38,315 bases of DNA from Candidatus Alloenteromonas pullicola (GTDB taxonomy: Bacteria; Bacillota_I; Bacilli_A; RFN20; CAG-826): NCBI GenBank assembly GCA_018714785.1, contig DVMV01000028.1:1-38315 (forward strand), in the 5' to 3' direction. Positions 10,246 through 11,807 of this stretch are shown piece after piece (the stretch's first letter is position 1; every line of letters starts with the position of its first letter). The notes beneath the pieces were generated by a model. It saw only the letters and a list, made by a program, of their open reading frames with translations, was not told the DNA's origin and ran no database searches. Both the position numbers and the translations under genes were made by a program.

Positions 10246-11100
10246 ATGGCTTTGACGTCCTGCTTGCTACTACTGTCCGCCCTGCTGAGCCTGCTGACCT
10301 ACTTCGAGCTCTCGCTGCAGCAGGACTGGCGGATGTTCTTCGTCCCGATATTGCTCCTGCCCGCCTTCTTCCTCGCCCTGTTGGCGGCCCTCCTATTGGG
10401 GCTATTCCTCGCCTCGCTGCGCTTCGAAGTATCGAAGCGGCATAAGCCGTCGCCTTTTCTCATCGGACTGGTCGAGGAGCTGGCCTTCCTGGCTTGCCTA
10501 TTGACCAGGGTCCACGTCCGGGTGTCGGGGATCGGGAGGATAAAGGACCTCAACGCCATGGTGGCCATCAACCACCTCTCGAACTTCGATTTCATCGCCC
10601 TGCTGTCCGCCTTCCGCGGCAAGCGGGTGGTCGCGGTGGCCAAGCAGGAGATCGCCTCCTGGCCGCTAATCGGCAGGGTGCTTTCCCAGGCGGGCTTCAT
10701 CTACCTCCGACGCGACGACCTCAAGGAAGGGGTGGAGGCCATCGAGCACGGGGCAAGGCTTATTGAGGATGGGCTATGCTCGGTCGCCGTGAGCCCCGAG
10801 GGGACGAGGAACAAGGGCTTCCCCAACCCGAGGATGCTCCCCTTCCACCCGGGGACCTTCGCCCTGGCCAAGAAGTCATCTTGCCCCATCGCCTTGGTAT
10901 GCATTCAGAACACCAACGCGGTTAAGGACCGCTTCCCGCTTCGCGCCACCAATGTCTACATCGACGTGATCGACGTCATAGGCAAGGAGCAGGTCGAGTC
11001 GATGATCCTGCGCGATATATCCGACCTCGCCCATTCGAAGATGGATTCCTTCCTCAAGGAAAAGCAAGCCCGCGCCTATGGGGCGTTCGCCTTGGAATAA
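10246..11100 (+). CDS. plsC: 1-acyl-sn-glycerol-3-phosphate acyltransferase-like protein
   Basis: NHLSNFDF (H-x4-D) and PEGTRNKGF motifs, N-terminal TM segments. Confidence 0.92.
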   Translation: MALTSCLLLLSALLSLLTYFELSLQQDWRMFFVPILLLPAFFLALLAALLLGLFLASLRFEVSKRHKPSPFLIGLVEELAFLACLLTRVHVRVSGIGRIKDLNAMVAINHLSNFDFIALLSAFRGKRVVAVAKQEIASWPLIGRVLSQAGFIYLRRDDLKEGVEAIEHGARLIEDGLCSVAVSPEGTRNKGFPNPRMLPFHPGTFALAKKSSCPIALVCIQNTNAVKDRFPLRATNVYIDVIDVIGKEQVESMILRDISDLAHSKMDSFLKEKQARAYGAFALE

Positions 11101-11157
11101 TCGGCGCAGTCGCTTGCTTATAGTCCCAAGGCCAAACCGCGATTAGGGAAAATATCC

Positions 11158-11187
11158 TTGACAGGTTAACGGTGATAAAAATATTAT
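11158..11187 (+). promoter_or_regulatory. Consensus sigma-A promoter upstream of orphan RNA
   Basis: TTGACA (11158-11163), 18-bp spacer, TATTAT (11182-11187). Confidence 0.8.
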
Positions 11188-11194
11188 TTTCATT

Positions 11195-11322
11195 CAGTAG
11201 GGGAAGCCCGGTAACTCGCGCGTGGGATTCGCGCCTGGAGAAAGGCCTTAGTAATCCCCAGGACCGTGTCGTACTCCTAGGCACCCGGCACGCTCCCCCA
11301 GCTTCGCGGGCTGGGCTTTTTT
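11195..11322 (+). ncRNA. Putative free-standing structured non-coding RNA (~125 nt)
   Basis: Consensus promoter; closing helix GGGG-A-AGC-CCGG/CCGG-CAC-GCT-CCCC; hairpin GCGCG-UGGGAUU-CGCGC whose loop is complementary to AAUCCC (11253-11258); hairpin GUGUC/GGCAC; intrinsic terminator. No ORF. Confidence 0.65.
11297..11322 (+). terminator. Intrinsic terminator of orphan RNA
   Basis: CCCAGC-TTCGCGG-GCTGGG-C-TTTTTT. Confidence 0.88.
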
Positions 11323-11402
11323 ATTCATTTTGCCGATTAAGGTGAAATCAAGCAGCGTGGGTTAGGGACCGCCAAGGAGTTCTGCCATCGCCAGGATAGT
11401 GG

Positions 11403-11690
11403 ATGTTATTTCCCAGTCGCAGGGCGCCAAGGACGGCCATAAGGAAGGTGATGGAACAACGCAGAGGCATATTCGGGGTCAGTTTCATAAGATTCCATGG
11501 CTTGCCCCACAGCTGCGCCTCCCACTTAATCCACGACGGAATGGTCCCCATTCTGGTCGCAAAGCGCCTGCGGCATGCACCAGTTAAGGAAACGCTGGAT
11601 ATCGCGAACGCGGCGCCCAAAATGATCGAATCGTTTTTTCTGGCAAGAAGCAGTCAACTGAAGATAAATGTCTTGCAATATGTCTTGCAC
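11403..11690 (+). pseudogene. Decayed tyrosine recombinase/integrase C-terminal fragment
   Basis: IRFHGLPHSCASHLIHDGMVPILVAKRLRHAPVKETLDIANAAPK matches the integrase core pattern HDLRHSxASxLI...VxxRLGHxxxxxTLDTYxHxxP, but HxxR is HGLPH and the Tyr region is lost; stop codon just upstream in frame. Confidence 0.75.
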
Positions 11691-11730: not shown

Positions 11731-11807
11731 TGGCGCGCCCGAGCCGACTCGAACGGCTGGCCCACAGCTTAGAAGGCTGTTGCTCTATCCAGCTGAGCTA
11801 CGGGCGC
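11731..11807 (-). tRNA. tRNA-Arg (anticodon TCT), CCA encoded
   Basis: GCGCCCG-TA-GCTC...GAGC-A-ACAGC-CTTCTAA-GCTGT-...-AGCCG-TTCGAGT-CGGCT-CGGGCGC-G-CCA full cloverleaf. Confidence 0.97.

Follow-up and report, generated by a model that had tools for sequence, protein, structure and literature searches.

What is the non-coding stretch between a plsC gene and an integrase remnant, and where did it come from? At this site in the window (the whole 38,315-nt stretch of DNA that was analyzed here), the sequence-only reading had placed an orphan structured RNA with its own promoter and terminator. The site and its surroundings comprised the following features:

10246–11100, + strand: plsC-like acyltransferase gene, the other flank of the insertion site and also a neighbor in genomes G029, G023, and G030
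11158–11187, + strand: sigma-70 type promoter (−35 TTGACA, 11158–11163; 18-bp spacer; −10 TATTAT, 11182–11187)
11195–11322, + strand: predicted RNA of about 120–128 nt, delimited by the start of homology and the terminator, with its 5′ end at about CAGUAGG
11297–11322, + strand: intrinsic terminator, an 8-bp stem (11297–11315) followed by CTTTTTT (T6)
11388–11663, + strand: C-terminal piece of a broken tyrosine integrase, located by tblastn with the G029 integrase and containing an internal stop
11731–11807, − strand: tRNA-Arg(TCT), the integration target of a related element, whose att repeats lie at the same tRNA in G029

The Predicted Transcription Unit

The promoter, the T6 terminator and both neighbors (plsC upstream, the broken integrase downstream) were recovered just where the sequence-only reading had put them. 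The promoter had 11 of 12 consensus matches, and a promoter search over 901 bp gave two overlapping matches against 0.6 expected. The homology between the window and its congener G029 began at CAGUAGG, which was 7 nt past the −10 element in the window and 5 nt past it in G029. There, a promoter (TTGATT-16-TATATT) occupied the equivalent place ahead of the same RNA 5′ end. The terminators found 3′ of hairpin P3 in G029 and in a second copy of the RNA in the window's genome were unrelated in sequence to the terminator of the window. Homology that starts just past the −10 element and ends at each copy's own terminator is the layout expected of an RNA gene. Reading frames within the RNA were short, and the copies had none in common. 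Judged from the sequence, this was most likely a stand-alone RNA gene, with transcription predicted from its own sigma-70 promoter to its own terminator.

With Rfam 15 at the gathering score, no family except the tRNA-Arg (11734–11807) was found in the window, and the homologous loci gave no family match. A relaxed Rfam search of 11100–11400 returned chance-level matches only (E 1.3, far under the cut-off). The earlier failure to recognize any known class was thus borne out. Two general types of RNA were considered and rejected. A riboswitch or mRNA leader did not suit the locus, because the terminator was followed only by the broken integrase in the window, and the next gene in G029 was on the opposite strand. 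A housekeeping RNA (SRP, 6S, RNase P, or tmRNA) did not suit an RNA present in 2 of 279 genomes of the order, with no Rfam or ARAGORN match. Pairing of GGACCGUGUC (11261–11270) with a stretch of 16S rRNA, which we take to be conserved and complementary to it, was dropped as a coincidence, since G029 had GGACCAUGUC instead.

Homologues and Their Distribution

Homologues were sought by blastn in 31 genomes of the genus, among them the window's genome (G000) and G029. Two were obtained: a second copy in the window's genome (G000:C10:5170–5253, 89% identity over 85 nt, E 1e-25) and a copy in G029 (C1:331096–331165, 81% over about 70 nt, E 4e-9). The close relatives G023 and G030 had no RNA. Searched with a covariance model of the 3′ domain, 224 genomes of the family yielded no further members, and among 279 genomes of the order the RNA was present only in the window's genome and G029. 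Among 85,462 GTDB species genomes, a motif scan picked out only the G029 contig CASFQA010000001.1. A motif by which further copies in the genus could be recognized is AGGAC-N5-10-ACTCCTAGGCACC. Two motif scans of viral contigs and a blastn search of phage records returned no match to the RNA, and blastn against plasmids gave just two chance-level matches (E 0.4). The RNA is genuine but very rare.

The second copy was truncated at the 5′ side: the homologous 5′ end was missing and no promoter was recognized, and its own terminator was kept. The locus as a whole (G000:C10:5152–5260, minus strand) lay about 0.3 kb from tRNA-Ser(GCT). Its 5′ end adjoined a divergent HxlR-like regulator gene, which was absent from G029.

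Secondary Structure and the Invariant Loop

Comparison of the three copies gave the following candidate helices:

11200–11259, + strand: P1, GGGGA (11200–11204) with UCCCC (11255–11259); GGACC/GGUCC in G029
11218–11234, + strand: P2, GCGCG (11218–11222) with CGCGC (11230–11234); GCGUG/CACGC in G029
11261–11296, + strand: P3, GGA (11261–11263) with UCC (11294–11296), a C-C mismatch, and CGUGUCG (11265–11271) with CGGCACG (11286–11292)
11273–11285, + strand: P3 loop ACUCCUAGGCACC, 13 nt, identical in all three copies and holding the palindrome CCUAGG

P3 paired in all three copies (100% of cells), and slid registers reached at most 59%. Two of its pairs had changed on both sides in a compensatory way (C-G to U-A and G-C to A-U), with a compensated double change carried by the second copy, and one pair showed a wobble change. 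With three sequences this covariation is thin, the observed values being reached in 62 of 500 shuffles. Compensatory changes in homologues, proposed in the sequence-only reading as a check on the structure, were thus found in P3 and support a structured RNA. The computed mean unpaired probability of the P3 loop was 0.79–0.96. On the strength of the compensatory changes, we propose a fold of hairpins in which P3 displays the invariant loop ACUCCUAGGCACC.

P1 and P2 are putative helices derived from one sequence pair, the window and G029. In both genomes P1 sat directly between the common CAGUA and AGGACC; the second copy was without the 5′ strand of P1 and had lost P2. The minimum-energy fold of the G029 RNA consisted, unaided, of P1, P2, P3, and the terminator, with pairing probabilities of about 0.97 for P1 and 0.8–0.95 for P2. 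For the window RNA, the fold with P1, P2, and P3 had −45.5 kcal/mol vs. a minimum of −47.6 kcal/mol. Here P1 was favored just within the 5′ domain taken by itself and in one longer stretch, P1 and P2 together were favored in no more than parts of the transcript, and the full ensemble was not clearly for them.

The hairpin GCGCG/CGCGC described earlier is P2 and was retained unchanged. GGGATT (11224–11229) is indeed complementary to AATCCC (11253–11258), and the nested helix was present in the full-length minimum-energy fold of the window. However, neither a pseudoknot nor a nested helix of GGGAUU with AAUCCC was kept in the homologues, as G029 lacks the pairing and the second copy, with GAGAUU, has a mismatch in it. 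The closing helix (GGGG..CCGG with CCGG..CCCC) likewise exists as complementarity, but neither G029 nor the second copy, where it is mismatched, keeps it, and its proposed sharing of the terminator stem is left unsupported. In the second hairpin, GTGTC (11266–11270) is able to pair with either of two GGCAC copies, but the homologues back the GGCAC at 11287–11291 rather than the one at 11280–11284 chosen before, and the pairing so placed extends by GGA/UCC.

The folding energy of the window RNA had a z-score of 0.03 against shuffles, so folding energy alone gave no evidence for a structured RNA. This would agree with promoter-like and hairpin-like sequence having met by chance in non-coding debris. 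However, one homologue occurred in another species and one at a second locus, and compensatory changes accompanied them, which made such a coincidence extremely improbable.

The Carrier Element

In G029, plsC was separated from tRNA-Arg by an apparently intact integrative element of 22.3 kb (C1:330601–352936). Exact 37-bp att repeats (C1:330601–330637 and 352900–352936) included the 3′ end of the tRNA-Arg. The tyrosine integrase (PF00589, 9e-21) abutted the tRNA-Arg, and the RNA was located inside the att repeats, 0.43 kb from the element end opposite the integrase. The element encoded an ATPase of 735 aa with the Walker A motif GAPGIGKT and a hydrophobic N-terminus, a DnaD-like loader, and several exported paralogs, some of which gave Ig-like matches. 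Relatives of the ATPase were detected in 26 of 224 genomes of the family, where rolling-circle Reps (PF23343, PF02486) and integrases were frequent neighbors. The ATPase itself had no Pfam Zot match, no Rep was recognized in the G029 element, and PADLOC found nothing among its proteins. By analogy, the element is probably an atypical inovirus-like prophage, a label that we infer. The record MT835493.1 ("Bacteriophage sp.") carried anaerobic ribonucleotide reductase, aminotransferase, and PcfJ genes around an inovirus-type Rep and ATPase, which suggests a piece of chromosome with a prophage in it.

In G023 and G030, plsC was directly followed by tRNA-Arg(TCT), with no insert. In the window, the integrase piece was 44% identical to the G029 integrase over 97 aa (tblastn, E 2e-24), and the DNA from 11447 into the tRNA-Arg was 65% identical to the end of the G029 element over 437 bp. 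These two similarities indicated that the window holds a collapsed element, of which the RNA and the integrase tail are the recognizable parts. No ATPase of the element family was found in the window's genome. An RNA carried as element cargo at tRNA-Arg also explains the adjoining integrase remnant, a connection that the sequence-only reading had missed. Between the window and G029, the RNA had 81% DNA identity (about 70 nt) vs. 51% protein identity for PlsC; that the RNA is the more alike of the two fits either transfer or strong constraint.

In a sibling element in G001, whose ATPase was 62% identical to that of G029, no RNA was seen at the equivalent end, which suggests that the RNA is accessory cargo. 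Since the relative in G029 resides in an apparently intact element, the RNA is probably a rare regulator derived from mobile DNA. We regard it as a true RNA gene that stems from a mobile element and had not been catalogued before.

Rolling-circle phages use ssDNA hairpins, and the ATPase family of this element adjoins rolling-circle Reps in other genomes. The conserved segment might accordingly be an ssDNA signal of a rolling-circle element (a minus-strand origin or a packaging hairpin) mistaken for an RNA. However, the homology spans from just past the −10 element to the terminator in both promoter-bearing copies, P3 includes a T-G pair in two of the three copies, and nothing is seen at that end of the sibling element. 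We therefore considered an ssDNA signal very improbable.

Possible Role of the RNA

The best reading, to which we give about an even chance, is that the RNA is a mobile-element sRNA of about 125 nt, left behind in a decayed element and acting in trans through the P3 loop. An integrative element that inserted in tRNA-Arg(UCU) would have brought it in. The element would then have decayed, leaving the RNA and the broken integrase as what remains in the window. Transcription would start from the RNA's own sigma-70 promoter and stop at its own terminator, and the P3 loop ACUCCUAGGCACC may pair with another RNA, as in prophage sRNAs like DicF. Antisense action would fit a GGUGCCUAGGAGU-like site common to the targets.

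It is somewhat unlikely, though the most credible of the alternatives, that the RNA has its function in an intact element such as that of G029 and persists in the window as a recent remnant without a present role. The neighboring integrase is broken, no ATPase of the element family was detected in the host genome, and the second copy is missing its 5′ end and promoter, all of which is consistent with decay. On the other hand, the window promoter (11 of 12 matches), the hairpins, and the terminator are all intact, and even the truncated copy carries its compensated double change in P3.

Searches for targets of the putative trans-acting sRNA turned up none. Complements of the P3 loop with up to two mismatches were no commoner than the control in G000 and G029, and none occupied a clear ribosome-binding position in these genomes. 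Pairing of the loop with the start regions of element genes was no better than that of shuffled loops. The lack of an RNA target in these searches would suit a scaffold or self-assembling RNA, in which, instead of antisense pairing, P3 loops kiss through CCUAGG or the loop is bound by a protein. The palindrome lies within the invariant loop of every copy, and computed P3 dimers gained 13–15 kcal/mol over two monomers, a figure given without a shuffled-control comparison and from cofolding, which overstates dimers. However, the very invariance of the loop puts the palindrome beyond covariation testing, and no partner protein is known. We hold a scaffold to be unlikely. A broader proposal appeared doubtful to the same degree, namely a new class of small RNA that forms an independent cassette of inovirus-like prophages, works through an invariant 13-nt loop containing a palindrome (as a kissing dimer or on a dedicated target), and stays on as a host regulator after element loss.

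Comparison with Known Systems

Some inoviruses have an atypical morphogenesis ATPase with an N-terminal membrane part (PMC6813254). The G029 element resembles such atypical inoviruses in its N-terminally hydrophobic ATPase, its integrase, and its att repeats in a tRNA gene (PMC6813254). It differs from inoviruses in its length and in having no Pfam Zot match or recognized Rep, and its filiation with them is a probable one. A size of 22.3 kb is large for an inovirus.

Among RNAs, ROOL and GOLLD are associated with phages. They are large ornate non-coding RNAs that form homo-oligomers (PMC12286853). ROOL and GOLLD measure hundreds of nucleotides vs. about 125 nt here, and neither Rfam model matched the window RNA. 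The repertoire of phage RNAs also includes the packaging RNA of phi29, a small RNA encoded near the element end, whose loops are able to join molecules. The RNA described here is likewise small, probably phage-borne, and near an element end, with possible loop joining. Unlike it, however, the window RNA had no Rfam match, and a PHROGs scan of 20 ORFs of the G029 element showed no phi29-type protein.

The defective Qin prophage encodes DicF, which is 53 nt long, stems from the dicB operon, and has ftsZ mRNA and mRNAs of metabolism as its pairing partners (PMC5069750, PMC12197685). As in the window, a phage-carried small RNA is still present there once its element has become defective (PMC5069750, PMC12197685). 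The window RNA differs in having its own promoter, and no sequence relation between the two was seen via Rfam. Of the known systems, DicF offers the nearest parallel for a phage RNA that stays on past the decay of its phage. What had been an orphan structured region is now a defined, testable RNA gene: homologues exist, one hairpin is supported, its loop does not vary, and a mobile element carries it. Should the gene be transcribed, a prophage type that has received little study would gain a small RNA, and there would be an example of a phage RNA that outlived its phage.
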